This document shows positions 10,349 to 22,558 of a stretch of DNA of 23,880 nucleotides, in pieces. Each line of letters opens with the position of its first letter. The first letter of the stretch is position 1. The notes beneath the pieces were generated by a model. The model did no database searches. It worked only from the letters and a program-made list of their open reading frames with translations, and was not told the origin of the DNA. This DNA is from a virus. The translations under genes were made by a program, and so were the position numbers. The DNA lies in IMG/VR virus record IMGVR_UViG_3300042309_000372, positions 1 to 23,880 of that record; one strand, given 5' to 3'.

Positions 10349-13228
10349 ATGGAATTTATAGGCTCTGATTATCAAACTAAACCTCTCGACAGTAGTATGC
10401 AAGACGGTAAGCTTCTAGACTTACCTAAGCTTGCTGACGCTTCTGCTAACAGTATTAGACAGTCTATCGGAGAGGTGCAAAGAATTAACAGCACCGCTTC
10501 TAACGCTGATGCTGAAGCTGCTGGACGTAAGGTAGTGGTGCAACCAAAAGAAGGCGGCGGTCTTGTTGGCGCTCTTGCTGGTCTTGGCGAAGTTGCTGTA
10601 AAGTATACAGAGCAGCAAGAGAAACTCGCTAAAGAGCGCAAGAAAGAAGAGATGGCGAAAGCTGAGAAAGAGTATATCATTGCAGCAAACAGGTTAGCTG
10701 CAAGCGCACCTGACTACATCAATAAAACTAACGAAGGTAGTATTGGCTACCAGAGAAAAATTGAAGAGCTTAACACTCTCTATAAAGACAAAGTAGATGG
10801 AGGTGTTCTGCAAACACAATCTTTACGGATGTACTCTCCTATACAACAGTACCAAGAGCAAGACATTACACGCCTTAGAGAAGAAGGTAAGAAGATACGC
10901 GACACAAACGTGCAGACTCTTATAACTCAGCAAATTATAACAGTAGACACCCAACTAGCTGACTTGTCAAACGAGACAGATTCTACTAAAGCTCAGACCA
11001 GAGTAGACAACGTTTACAAAGTTTTAACAGACACGTTAGTAAACTCTAAACTAGACGGCGCTGATAAAGCTGTGTTTATTAACGGCGTTGTCACAGCTAT
11101 AGGTAAATCATCTGCTGCTGGTGCGAAAATAAGAGGTGAGTTGATGGGTGCAGTCCGCGTTATTAACGACACTAATCTTCTTATTCAACAAACTGAAGAT
11201 ATGCCAGCAGAGCAGAAGAACACTCTTAGACTTGCTAGATTAGCAATACTCCCTCCTCAAATAGCTAAAGCGTATGCTGATATACTTGACCCTGCTGCAC
11301 GAAGACGAGCCGATGCTGAACTGGCGCGAAATCAGCGTGAGTTGGACAATGCTGCGAAAGAGGGTACGATTGACGCTCTTAAAGCATTTAGAATTTCAGC
11401 AGACTACAACCAATCGATGACTGCTATTTATCTTAAATCTGATGGTAACACCAGAGCCGCACTTAAAGCAGATTGGGAAAATATTCCAGCATTGAAGGCT
11501 GTTGTAGAAGCTGCTGATAATTATGACAAGGACAAAAATAAACTAGCTACTCTTGAAGGTGAAAGCAGAGCACTCGCAAGTACTATCGCTGGACTCGGTA
11601 AGAGTGACGCTAAAGAACGTTTGAGTTGGGTGCAAGATGCTTTCAAGCTTCCTATGTTGTCACTTAATGTAAGTGTTGCACAAGAGTTACAAGAAGCTGT
11701 AAAAAACTACACTAAAGCACTTGCTCAAGGTACTCCAGCAGAAGTACAGAAGGCACAGCAGGAAGTAGAGAAGTTTAACAAAATTGCGCTTGATGCTGTC
11801 AACGACAGGGTTAAGTTTATACAGCAAGAAATGAAGAGAGTGAACACCATTTGGCAACCACTAGATGAATTGCTAAAAGACCCAAGCAAGATAGAAGTTG
11901 CGCTCACACGCTTCAGAGAAACAACACAAAACATAAAGACAATTAGAGAGCAACGCAACCAATCTACTATGAGAGGAGAAAACCAAAATTTTAATATGCC
12001 CCAACTTGCCGAATTGCAGGTTGGGGATGTCAAGTTTCCACTTCCTTTCAAAGCAGGTACGCAAGTAACATATTCTGGTGATTACAGAGAATGGCGCGGC
12101 AACCGACAACACGCTGGTATCGACATCGCTGTACCAGAGAACACTCCACTCATATCTCCTATTGGAGGTGTAATTGCTACAGTGAGAGATGACGGTAACG
12201 AAGGGTACGGCAAATTTATCGATGTCCGCACACCTGACGGTAAATATGTCCGTTATGCACATCTTAATACGATTAATGTACGTGAAGGTCAACAAGTGCT
12301 AGCAGGGCAAGTATTAGGCGCAACTGGAAATACTGGTAGTTCTACTGGAGCGCACCTACACATGGAAGTACGCAACGACATGTACGGTGGTGTAGAAGCT
12401 ACAGAAGACCCTATTGCTTGGAGTGTGAAGAACATCAACAATGCAAACAGAGGACTCCGCGCCCGTTCAGGAGCAAACACTCCAGAAGGAGTGCCTCCTA
12501 ACGCAGTACCGTTGAGTGGTGCTTATTTACTAGACGGTAAAATTTACTACACAAACGGCTCTGCGGCAACACCTCCATACAACAATCGTAACCCTATACG
12601 CGACATACCACTGCCAGCAGACAAGTCAAAGTATGTGTCGTCACCTGAAAAGAACTACGGTTATCAAGAGTTGGCGCAAAATGCTCCGTTTCGTAAAGAG
12701 TTGCACCGAGTAGCAAAATCTCTTGGTACACCTGCTCAGTGGTTAGCAGATGCAATGGCGTTTGAAACTGGAGGTACTTTTGCTGCTTCTGTTACAAACA
12801 GTGATGGTTACACTGGACTTATACAGTTCGGTGATGAAGCTGCAAAAGACGTTGGCACTACCAAATATGAGTTAAGGCAGATGACTAACACTGAGCAACT
12901 TAAGTATGTTGAGAAGTTCTTAAAGATGCGTAGAGATACATACGGTTTAAAGTATGACAAACCAGAAGCCATCATTATGGGAATATGGGGAGGTGTAGAG
13001 CATATTCAAAGTTATGTGCGCGACCCACAATCTGTAAGGAACGTAAGAGATAAAAACATCACTTTTGCGGAGTATGTCAAACGTGTCGGAGAACACGCAG
13101 GTAGAAAATACCAAACTTCTTATGATGACAAAATTAGACCAGTTCACACTTCATACCGAGCTTCTTGCGCGATGTGCCAAGCATTACAGAGAGCAGGTAT
13201 GGGTATATTACCACATGAGGCTCCATAA
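10349..13228 (+). CDS. Internal virion protein with M23 peptidase and transglycosylase-like domains
   Basis: The 959-residue protein is probably an ejected core protein that opens the host cell wall. Residues about 80-560 are helical and charged with likely coiled coils. Residues about 575-690 form an M23 zinc endopeptidase: HAGID (H588, D592), RYAHLN (H638) and GAHLHMEV (H669, H671), so all expected zinc and catalytic residues are present. Residues about 770-895 resemble a lysozyme/lytic transglycosylase fold: AMAFETGGTF (candidate catalytic E806), then VTNSDGYTGLIQF (815-827). Two wall enzymes in one chain can cut both peptide and glycan. T7 carries a single transglycosylase domain in gp16, so this is a different distribution. 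The start ATG has only a weak ribosome site three bases after the previous stop; the end overlaps the next start by one base (TAATG). Confidence 0.85.
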   Translation: MEFIGSDYQTKPLDSSMQDGKLLDLPKLADASANSIRQSIGEVQRINSTASNADAEAAGRKVVVQPKEGGGLVGALAGLGEVAVKYTEQQEKLAKERKKEEMAKAEKEYIIAANRLAASAPDYINKTNEGSIGYQRKIEELNTLYKDKVDGGVLQTQSLRMYSPIQQYQEQDITRLREEGKKIRDTNVQTLITQQIITVDTQLADLSNETDSTKAQTRVDNVYKVLTDTLVNSKLDGADKAVFINGVVTAIGKSSAAGAKIRGELMGAVRVINDTNLLIQQTEDMPAEQKNTLRLARLAILPPQIAKAYADILDPAARRRADAELARNQRELDNAAKEGTIDALKAFRISADYNQSMTAIYLKSDGNTRAALKADWENIPALKAVVEAADNYDKDKNKLATLEGESRALASTIAGLGKSDAKERLSWVQDAFKLPMLSLNVSVAQELQEAVKNYTKALAQGTPAEVQKAQQEVEKFNKIALDAVNDRVKFIQQEMKRVNTIWQPLDELLKDPSKIEVALTRFRETTQNIKTIREQRNQSTMRGENQNFNMPQLAELQVGDVKFPLPFKAGTQVTYSGDYREWRGNRQHAGIDIAVPENTPLISPIGGVIATVRDDGNEGYGKFIDVRTPDGKYVRYAHLNTINVREGQQVLAGQVLGATGNTGSSTGAHLHMEVRNDMYGGVEATEDPIAWSVKNINNANRGLRARSGANTPEGVPPNAVPLSGAYLLDGKIYYTNGSAATPPYNNRNPIRDIPLPADKSKYVSSPEKNYGYQELAQNAPFRKELHRVAKSLGTPAQWLADAMAFETGGTFAASVTNSDGYTGLIQFGDEAAKDVGTTKYELRQMTNTEQLKYVEKFLKMRRDTYGLKYDKPEAIIMGIWGGVEHIQSYVRDPQSVRNVRDKNITFAEYVKRVGEHAGRKYQTSYDDKIRPVHTSYRASCAMCQALQRAGMGILPHEAP

Positions 13229-20600: not shown

Positions 20601-21611
20601 ACAGAAGATGACTCAGTTACAGAAGCAGGTATCTCTCCAGAGGTTGTCAAAGGACTACCTTACTACATCGGTCGTGTTAAGGACGATGACAACAAACTAA
20701 CTATGTGGATGGACGAGTCGTACAACCCTGCAACGTCTACATTTCAGTTTGTTAAAGAGTTAACAGGTGTAGGCAAAACTGCTGCGGATAAACGTGCAGA
20801 ATTGCAAGGCGAGGGTAGAAACGACACCCTCGTTAGGTTAATGAACTCGTCTTACCCTGTCTATAAAATCATCTACGAACTTACAAGTGGCACTAACCTT
20901 CGTACTGGAAAACCTCTGCGCCGCACAGACGGGCGCGGTATCCCTATCCTTGGCTTTGAAGCACCTCCTGAACTATACTCCATCATCAACAACGCTGTAC
21001 CTGCTATCGGTGCTATCGATAGAATGGATATACCTGCCATCAGTGGTCTGCCAACTATCCGCGACAACAACGGCAACATCATCCAGAAAGGCTACGGCGG
21101 TCTAGGAGGTGCAATCCCCGATGCCACTGGAAGGGTGCTCCGTAACCGCGAAGTGGCTAACGAGTGGGTTGGTGCTGCACTCTCGCTCATTGGTGGTAAA
21201 CTCAAAATCGTGGACATGGCGCGTCAGAACAAAATTACCTACAACGACATCTCGCGCTCACTCGACATCGTTGGCAAACAAGTTGACACCAAAACTCAGG
21301 AACTGTTGCGCGACCAGCGTGATGGCATCCTCAGGAAGGGTGAGTATGAGAAGAAGCTTAAAGACATCGAGCGCCTTATCATCGCGCGGGAACAACTTCA
21401 ATACGATGAAGACATGGTGTGGATGTGGCTCAACGAGAGAGGTGTCCTTACTGACAAGGAAATCAAACAAAAAGAGCGCTACATGACAGAGCTTCAGCAA
21501 AAAGGTATGCACCCTTCCGAAGCTGCTATCCAGAGGAGTGCCGACCGACTACTACGTTTTAGACAAAGTACTATCTATAACTATGTCGAAAACAAGAAAA
21601 AAGCCCCGTAA
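17637..21611 (+). CDS. Very large internal virion protein (gp16-position)
   Basis: The 1324-residue protein follows the other core proteins and most likely belongs to the ejected channel complex. Residues about 15-290 are highly charged, Ala/Lys/Glu-rich and probably long coiled coils. Residues about 300-690 are mixed helical (for example GNAMGVGIETIDPFIGYITR). Residues about 700-990 form the best-defined block, with LVNNFPVYLSNQALGNFISS, FVYRLMTYMFGTGELTGGKA and KYAIMFTSWQASMIPRVLRD, aromatic and amphipathic as in membrane-interacting ejection proteins. The C-terminus (about 1200-1324) is again charged and helical. No enzyme motif was found; wall hydrolysis sits in the 959-residue protein instead. 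The ATG overlaps the upstream stop by 7 bases; GGAG lies 13 bases away, so translation is probably coupled. The first about 2 kb looks somewhat richer in C and G codons than its neighbours. Confidence 0.75.
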   Translation: MLSPCPLPKGRDKEAFTPDELNTAKARFANVRAERDKFIKYSDELAAAKTADIPKIDAKFQKGVTDAQNSVVKAQNKVDAIEQRVMMLGSTDKAVQKEFDLVKAEVNAYEQSLKAQKRIEDSINDLYNRYYAANPEITPQMVKAYEGMFNLAKTTTDPKQLKAIDVQLRQMERAMEAEVKGSAKLLEEVFQNKKIQTRNFNIQVERSRVARNRVTRAEKKLDAAIAKTDTKLSKELEEARNALDGTILNRNAEEALAQRYTQRLDKQRADKYAAKSARDEYNVVLGEAVALDPRKGRGVFDFVVSRLGYTLEMIGTEIAAGVRTNLQRAGYLAENAVNAIGDVVQVKTVIDFTNDFRKAANKLGISRKERLVLQTETLEVGQIPDFLNFFDSGNPVVKQVQNIRYNQYVEAMTKKGFTITQIDEFVNQAVKVSKVFDDIRVMGNAMGVGIETIDPFIGYITRIFSLDGDYALKRIVNPDRVTGDVLAVGKDSKFQFDIARKYEFLVPQDIDIAADIFKITPDELTDLINNPVQMQLFIEKNLAPAQIDTLLNVGFFQKLPMSSREVYDYLMAQYRLPFSSAADMFNLDIVENLGTYRRAIGDQANISMMLGRIFDEEGVKLGWSIDINAYEADKLLPADKRQFANYVNMEDKMLTWTARLGLPADVQAQFGKFYMHPVVADQVIALIDITKSPALLGQLGGFIGHANRFFSSMSRGVLVNNFPVYLSNQALGNFISSHAASTNPLNLPIAFIDHIRVMRGGLEVLDNTVKRWEVGGKQYTHREWFQLYYENNGTAVSSVFGERGRPSVTGTIDYAKDLLSNSSGFVYRLMTYMFGTGELTGGKALNSMERVLGGVDYFMKHADNVLNSLSSPVFYTANLIDSSAKWANWMSVGKRIDGASAVADKAGTYMFSQSVKQFDSVADINAHVRAYFPDMRDVGSTVYGVNKYAIMFTSWQASMIPRVLRDVARRPWRYAAYEKLRQFIAEPLTEDDSVTEAGISPEVVKGLPYYIGRVKDDDNKLTMWMDESYNPATSTFQFVKELTGVGKTAADKRAELQGEGRNDTLVRLMNSSYPVYKIIYELTSGTNLRTGKPLRRTDGRGIPILGFEAPPELYSIINNAVPAIGAIDRMDIPAISGLPTIRDNNGNIIQKGYGGLGGAIPDATGRVLRNREVANEWVGAALSLIGGKLKIVDMARQNKITYNDISRSLDIVGKQVDTKTQELLRDQRDGILRKGEYEKKLKDIERLIIAREQLQYDEDMVWMWLNERGVLTDKEIKQKERYMTELQQKGMHPSEAAIQRSADRLLRFRQSTIYNYVENKKKAP

Positions 21612-21816: not shown

Positions 21817-22247
21817 AGTACTTTATTTCGCAGGTGTCTACACCTCAGCAACTAGCAACACCTAACGCCAACAATCAAACTGTAGATTTGAATGTCATAC
21901 TCGCGTTAATTGTAGGAGGTGTAGGTGCTCTCGGTATTCCGAAGTTGGTGCAGATGTTTGTAGCTGACAAAGTTGACGGTTCAAAAGCAGAACGCCGCCG
22001 TGACGACATTGTATTGGAGAGTGTTCTTGAAGTCAACAAAACGATGCTGAAAGCAAGCGCTGACAACTATCTAAAGATGATGGAGTTCACGCAAACACTC
22101 GTCAGTGAAATCTCGATGATGCGCGAAGTCATCTCTAATAACACCAACGTTATGGAGAAGGTGCGCGTAGCAGGTGAGGAGTTAAAAGAAGAGATGCACT
22201 TTATCAAAGTGCAGATGTCTGCGCCACGCAACAACGATATAATGTGA
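21813..22247 (+). CDS. Single membrane-segment protein, holin or spanin candidate
   Basis: The 144-residue protein has a short polar N-terminus, one hydrophobic segment (LNVILALIVGGVGALGIPKL, residues 26-45, continuing VQMFVA), a basic patch (KAERRRDD) and then a long charged helix to the C-terminus likely to be a coiled coil. This layout occurs in one-span holins, inner-membrane spanins and some virion membrane proteins, and the sequence does not separate these. It is the last + strand gene, next to the terminator region, where lysis genes often lie. The start ATG is in an ATGA overlap with the previous stop, with GAGGAAG about 6 bases upstream, so the start is firm. No endolysin gene is adjacent in the window. 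Confidence 0.6.
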   Translation: MKYFISQVSTPQQLATPNANNQTVDLNVILALIVGGVGALGIPKLVQMFVADKVDGSKAERRRDDIVLESVLEVNKTMLKASADNYLKMMEFTQTLVSEISMMREVISNNTNVMEKVRVAGEELKEEMHFIKVQMSAPRNNDIM

Positions 22248-22280
22248 AGTTTATACGAATACGAAAGTTTACTGAAGTAG

Positions 22281-22346
22281 TTGATCGGATTCATTACCAA
22301 TTGATCGACAGTACAGAAACGTGATCAGCGATAGCTGTAAGCGATC
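22281..22346. repeat. Array of four GATC sites at exact 20-bp spacing
   Basis: GATC begins at 22283, 22303, 22323 and 22343, each exactly 20 bp apart, in contexts TTGATCGG, TTGATCGA, GTGATCAG and GCGATCTG. Three of the four fit TGATC(A/G). The sequence between sites is not conserved. Twenty bases are close to two helical turns, so the sites face one side of the DNA. Only one other GATC was found in the whole window. Function is unknown; methylation-sensitive protein binding is a natural hypothesis. Confidence 0.85.
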
Positions 22347-22433
22347 TGTAGACACTCTAATAGGTTAGATGTGTGTTTGTAAGGTCAGACTCTACCAAGC
22401 CGTACAGAATCAAACAGCACCATTCAGGTAAAG

Positions 22434-22460
22434 TTCACATAGATAATACTCTGCTATTAT
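22434..22460 (+). promoter_or_regulatory. Weak promoter-like element with inverted repeat
   Basis: TTCACA (22434-22439) and TATTAT (22455-22460) resemble -35 and -10 boxes, but the spacing of 15 is short. ATAATA (22443-22448) and TATTAT form a 6-bp inverted repeat around CTCTGC, which might be an operator. A transcript from here would meet the terminator after about 60 bases. This is speculative. Confidence 0.25.
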
Positions 22461-22493
22461 TCGTGTAAATTTCATACAATTTAATGACATACA

Positions 22494-22528
22494 AAAGCCG
22501 CAGTCAATTAAGATTGCGGCTTTCTTTT
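22494..22528. terminator. Bidirectional intrinsic terminator
   Basis: AAAGCCGCA (22494-22502) pairs perfectly with TGCGGCTTT (22515-22523). Pairing continues inward through GTC/GAT (one G-U) to a 6-base loop AATTAA, giving a 12-pair stem. On the + strand TTTCTTTT follows; on the - strand the other side gives a TTTT run. It lies between converging genes, so it can end both transcripts. Confidence 0.9.
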
Positions 22529-22558
22529 GCTGTCTTTAGCAGCGTTACATATTTACAC

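Follow-up and report, generated by a model that had tools for sequence, protein, structure and literature searches.

Genes and sequence features at the locus

The window, i.e., the whole stretch of 23,880 bp that was analysed, belongs to a podovirus with a distant relationship to cyanophages (Saffermanviridae). The best matches of its portal protein (39% identity) were cyanophages of filamentous cyanobacteria of the Pf-WMP3 type, now assigned to the Saffermanviridae. The genes form a T7-like set, with those for terminase, portal, capsid, tail and peptidase on one arm; the converging arm of the relatives encodes DNA polymerase A, a primase-helicase, a ligase, a Sak-like annealing protein and a Cas4-type exonuclease. 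Between the last late gene and the converging early-arm gene there is a gap of 311 bp (22248-22558). For the 400-aa product of the early-arm gene a single distant match was obtained, which is located on a plasmid of the cyanobacterium Gloeobacter, and no relative was found among 84,980 species genomes. Based on the cyanophage portal matches and the Gloeobacter plasmid match, the host is probably a cyanobacterium, as judged from these relatives. The counterpart of the 400-aa gene in the related phage G003 lies at L080:8658-10064; together with the neighbouring MoxR-type AAA ATPase gene it may recall couples of the MoxR/VWA type.

Table 1. Positions of genes and sequence features where the late and early arms converge (window coordinates)
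Feature	Position	Strand	Remarks
Last late gene, 144 aa	21813..22247	+	no family match; upstream of the gap
Repeat L1 TGAAGTTTATACGAAT	22245..22260	+	shares bases with the TGA stop codon of the late gene upstream
Repeat L2 CGAAAGTTTACTGAAG	22262..22277	+	17 bp after L1 in 6/6 lineages
GATC site 1	22283..22286	.	+38 from L1 in 6/6 lineages; GATCG invariant
GATC site 2	22303..22306	.	offset +58 in the window; +63 to +65 in other lineages
GATC site 3	22323..22326	.	offset +78 in the window; +83/84 or +93 elsewhere
GATC site 4	22343..22346	.	+98 in the window, +104 in G002, +121 in G007/G009; absent in G003 and G008
20-bp block AAGCCGTACAGAATCAAACA	22397..22416	+	identical in the window, G002, G007 and G009
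AT-rich stretch, 71% AT	22406..22485	.	top 0.1% of the window's 80-bp stretches
Repeat R2 TGAACTTTACCTGAAT	22422..22437	-	inverted relative to L1/L2
Repeat R1 TGAAATTTACACGAAT	22459..22474	-	37 bp from R2 in 6/6 lineages
Intrinsic terminator hairpin, then CTTTT	22494..22523	+	end of the late operon
Converging early-arm gene, 400 aa	22559..23761	-	adjoins the MoxR-type AAA ATPase gene in relatives

At this junction we identified an element of approximately 230 bp (22245-22474) with a rigid geometry across lineages (Table 1). Comparison of its arms disclosed a 16-bp repeat with the rough consensus YGAAAKTTANNYGAAW (24 copies, 21 bits). L1 and L2 have the same orientation, while R2 and R1 are two inverted copies embedded in AT-rich DNA. 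When the motif for each genome was trained exclusively on the remaining lineages, the four copies turned out to be the top four matches genome-wide in the window, G002, G003 and G009, and ranked 1, 2, 4 and 6 in G007. In G008 three copies gave the top three matches, L2 being absent among the best matches listed. The AT-rich right part belonged to the top 0.007-0.2% of 80-mers across the genomes. In place of the 20-bp block, G003 and G008 have sequences able to form a short hairpin.

An inverted repeat follows the AT-rich right part in the window, G002, G003, G007 and G008; the contig of G009 ends earlier. The terminator hairpin exhibited compensatory changes in relatives. The G009 contig (L108) stops at position 10971, about 16 bp past R1, where the co-occurring G007 has a different sequence. 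A transposon was set aside, as the element is found at one and the same location in every lineage and, in the window, extends into a stop codon. An attP site was rejected as well, since a search for a tyrosine integrase (PF00589) yielded no match in G002, G003, G007 and G008, all of which have the size of complete genomes. Moreover, the 20-bp block was absent from 84,980 species genomes, so it does not represent an attachment core that these genomes have in common with the phage.

Distribution of the element

Two phages (G005 and G006) were about 97.7% identical to the window and contained all four GATC sites; they were taken together with the window as one lineage. Five more distant relatives (G002, G003, G007, G008 and G009), each counted as a lineage of its own, had the element behind the same set of late genes; wherever the contig is long enough, the same converging gene follows. 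G002, G003 and G007 are circular assemblies (127-bp k-mer-type end repeat) and probably complete. The ends of G008 overlap by about 140 bp as seen by eye, but not as an exact repeat.

An nhmmer profile of the element gave no match in the phages A-4L, TR020, Pf-WMP3, Pf-WMP4 and CHP58 and in contig L107 of G010. Scans with the pattern of sites 2-3 and with the 20-bp block did not reveal any further element-bearing phages. The four-site pattern with 20-bp steps was found in 57 stretches among 2.9 million viral contigs, two of which were G005 and G006. A total of this order lies close to what chance would give, and the pattern by itself therefore points to no obvious broader class. In G010 (L138), TGATCGA is immediately followed by ten consecutive C near position 21114, possibly an assembly or sequencing artefact.

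Depletion and retention of GATC

The window contains exactly five GATCs (16014, 22283, 22303, 22323 and 22343). Dinucleotide shuffles of the same DNA gave 56.6 ± 7.0 sites, and a Markov estimate amounted to 71. If five GATCs were placed randomly in the window, the chance of finding four of them within 60 bp would be about 1 in 200,000 or less. The sequence-only reading, which had described an intergenic cluster of four GATCs in exact 20-bp steps (22283-22346) with one further GATC elsewhere, agreed with the count in each of these points, all four sites residing inside the gap between the converging genes. It had also claimed a strong depletion, which holds true, although the roughly 90 sites it expected were somewhat too many.

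The avoidance is not confined to this word. GGCC was missing from the window (0 versus about 14 expected), CCGG was found three times versus about 21 expected and CATG was reduced to 45%; a similar depletion of these words was seen in the element-bearing relatives. As GGCC and CCGG are also depleted, the loss of GATC is part of a general, restriction-type avoidance, which fits an avoidance of words targeted by host restriction or methylation. In A-4L, TR020 and Pf-WMP4 there is not a single GATC, and the 43-kb genome of Pf-WMP3 wholly lacks AATT.

Whole records of the relatives, for which 57-129 GATCs were expected, contained five (three of them in the element; G003), ten (four; G002), nine (four; G007) and eight (three; G008) sites, and all four GATCs of the 22-kb fragment G009 reside inside the element. 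In some records the GATCs of the element are the only ones in tens of kb. When merely the composition of the element is considered and the avoidance disregarded, about one GATC would be expected versus four in the window (P ~0.014), the excess having P values of 0.01-0.06 per genome. Since the density is therefore only moderately high, the weight of the case lies on the retention of the sites in relatives.

Six lineages, which otherwise purged this word and which share the anatomy of the element, have kept three to four GATCs at a common location where the late and early arms converge. In pairwise alignments, all alignable GATCs of the element were also GATC in the partner genome (4/4, 4/4, 3/3 etc.), while none of the isolated GATCs outside the element was conserved, the latter being few cases (0 to 3 per pair). 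The proposal that the sites are preserved where the genome has lost GATC was thereby supported. In the comparisons of G007/G009 with the other lineages, the alignment of the GATC part was too poor for counting.

Two other features noted in that reading, the exact step of 20 bp and the hexamer TGATC(A/G), did not withstand the comparison with relatives. The steps were 20/20/20, 26/20/20, 26/20, 25/20 and 27/28/28, depending on the lineage, and the contexts included CGATCG, CGATCA, GGATCG and CGATCT, GATC alone being common to all. Sites 3 and 4 lie at +93 and +121 in G007/G009, compared to +78 and +98 in the window and +84 and +104 in G002. As the offsets and contexts of these sites differ at a constant length of the element, what is maintained seems to be how many GATCs there are, not one particular sequence. 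We read this as a turnover of sites at a maintained number; compensating insertions and deletions are the alternative.

Methylation and candidate partner proteins

A methyltransferase encoded by the phages, which the sequence-only reading had suggested to look for, was not found: nine records, some of them fragments, gave no match to PF02086 (D12) and PF01555 (N6/N4 adenine methyltransferase). DmtA-type GATC methylation is reported for nearly all cyanobacteria except the picocyanobacterial group, and DmtA is essential in Anabaena PCC 7120 (PMC4390886). Given that DmtA is nearly universal, a host belonging to these cyanobacteria would methylate the sites of the element.

No member of a known initiator family was detected among the scanned proteins. 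The element-bearing relatives encode two paralogous early proteins of 362 and 310 aa (in G003 at L081:701-1789 and L081:2029-2961), which matched each other with a profile probability of 98.6% and had no match in the phage collection. The element-less relative G010 revealed a weak match to the 362-aa protein, but not to the 310-aa protein. By eye, the motifs SGRHR and GLRHR of these proteins recall ParB/sulfiredoxin folds; the corresponding profile hits were at noise level and the structural models were poor (mean pLDDT 51-54). We regard the two proteins as a lead only in the search for a partner of the element.

Possible function of the element

Our tentative explanation, which we hold with less than even confidence, is that the region 22245-22474 is a cis-acting control site whose repeats are bound by a protein and whose GATCs could be read by way of host methylation, most likely for the control of replication. 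A phage- or host-encoded protein would bind the four YGAA-N7-YGAA repeats and might fold the approximately 230 bp into a compact complex. Assuming that a DmtA-type methyltransferase of the host modifies the sites between the repeats, the element could distinguish parental methylated DNA from new hemi- or unmethylated DNA. Its most likely use would be in controlling genome replication, either at initiation or in fork handling where the arms meet, by a logic comparable to that of P1 oriR or of iteron origins containing GATCs. Of the methylation-sensing switches considered by the sequence-only reading, one acting on replication or transcription is conceivable.

The assignment to replication control, as opposed to another DNA transaction, is the weakest step of this explanation. 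The maximum of the cumulative GC skew coincides with the element or lies close to it (closest in G002 and G008), which is terminus-like rather than origin-like and gives no support for a replication start at this place; as gene direction accounts for the peak equally well, the skew is confounded. We therefore consider replication control in the broad sense, origin or terminus alike, to be most likely. The fact that the related phages G010, A-4L, TR020, Pf-WMP3/4 and CHP58 replicate without the element counts against it.

Known systems resemble the element in part. Like an iteron origin, it has motif copies confined to one locus (four copies), and the adjacent region may serve as the AT-rich part of such an origin, as far as AT-richness tells. 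P1 oriR and the origins of Vibrio chromosome 2 likewise combine repeated sites (of 16 bp in our case), GATCs, AT-richness and a compact intergenic location, but they contain direct arrays, whereas two inverted pairs exist here and the skew gives no sign of an origin. As in the SeqA-bound clusters of oriC, multiple GATCs occur at helix-scale spacing; this spacing, however, is not conserved here. SeqA is not known from cyanobacteria. The SeqA-type phasing envisaged earlier was not corroborated, as the steps vary from 20/20/20 through 27/28/28. The lambda origin comprises four iterons and an AT-rich region (PMC7466680), to which the four iteron-like repeats and the AT-rich stretch correspond; in contrast to the O-protein iterons, the element lies outside an initiator gene, its repeats are inverted between the arms and it has retained GATCs.

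A more far-reaching version, which we think doubtful though conceivable, is an infection clock. Having purged GATC nearly everywhere else, the phage would carry the host mark on three or four GATCs at one nucleoprotein site, which switches replication and perhaps packaging. This nearly sole methylated site would then separate parental from newly replicated genomes.

Alternative explanations

A nucleoprotein boundary where the two arms meet, acting as a fork trap or roadblock at which GATC methylation signals that the second arm has been copied, appears unlikely. The position of the element exactly between the converging arms, at or near the maximum of the cumulative skew, is compatible with such a boundary, as are the adjoining terminator and the direct repeat pair on one side facing an inverted pair on the other, an arrangement known from polar fork traps. 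Yet, a Tus/RTP-like protein was not seen, and near relatives with converging arms do without the element.

It is quite unlikely that the element is a methylation-sensitive transcription operator for an unannotated RNA or for readthrough of the late genes. GATC clusters in OxyR-type operators are known, the element is intergenic, and the operators of Mu mom, agn43 and P22 gtr also contain three to four GATCs in a short regulatory stretch and are marked by the host methylase. Here, however, there is no evident promoter or regulated gene: both neighbouring genes point into the gap, and promoter-like sites were no more common than in shuffled sequences.

We assign an equally low probability to a structured RNA within the 3′ UTR of the late transcript, in which the GATCs would be RNA letters. 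The RNA of the window folded better than shuffled sequences (z -4.5), and the outer arms are able to pair, some pairs being changed on both sides. Nevertheless, the likeness of the arms is not specific for pairing. R2 and R1, which cannot pair with each other, were most alike (12.5/16), and arm comparisons of the nested (11.8, 11.0) and the crossed kind (11.0, 10.7) gave about the same values. One protein-binding motif present four times thus fits better than a specific helix. Furthermore, the minimum-energy folds differed among the lineages within the GATC part, no Rfam family reached its gathering score (best 24.2 bits versus a gathering score of 80), and the retention of a methylation or restriction word points to DNA. 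A tRNA search was negative.

We have strong doubts that GATC itself is free of selection, the tetramer being incidental to fixed protein sites or the host enzyme being inactive here. The number of GATCs only modestly exceeds the expectation from the composition of the element, and site 1 is placed in a rigid context. On the other hand, sites 3 and 4 are still GATC at the other offsets and in the other contexts of G007/G009, and the flanks of the sites vary while GATC stays.

A P1-like methylation-dependent site for packaging or concatemer cutting, as put forward by the sequence-only reading, is highly improbable: P1 pac, 161 bp with seven TGATC(A/G) hexamers (PMC10028697), also clusters several GATCs in short phage DNA under possible methylation control, and the G009 contig ends 16 bp past R1, but the element has no conserved hexamer, possesses flanking 16-bp repeats, lies outside the terminase gene (about 20 kb away), and the assembled circles break at unrelated places. 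Sequenced Saffermanviridae have direct terminal repeats of 107-234 bp at the map ends between diverging arms; the element is situated where the arms converge, opposite on the map to the genome ends presumed from this family, which disfavours packaging.

Significance of the element

Phages commonly avoid restriction words. The retention of a purged word at one site constitutes a natural experiment that sets the word as a target of defence apart from the word as needed for function. The element is short, present in a single copy and testable, and it occurs in phages that are probably phages of cyanobacteria. In these bacteria the role of DmtA is unsettled, even though the enzyme is near universal and essential in Anabaena. 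If methylation matters there, the element would be a methylation-controlled viral site beyond the enterobacterial Dam systems.
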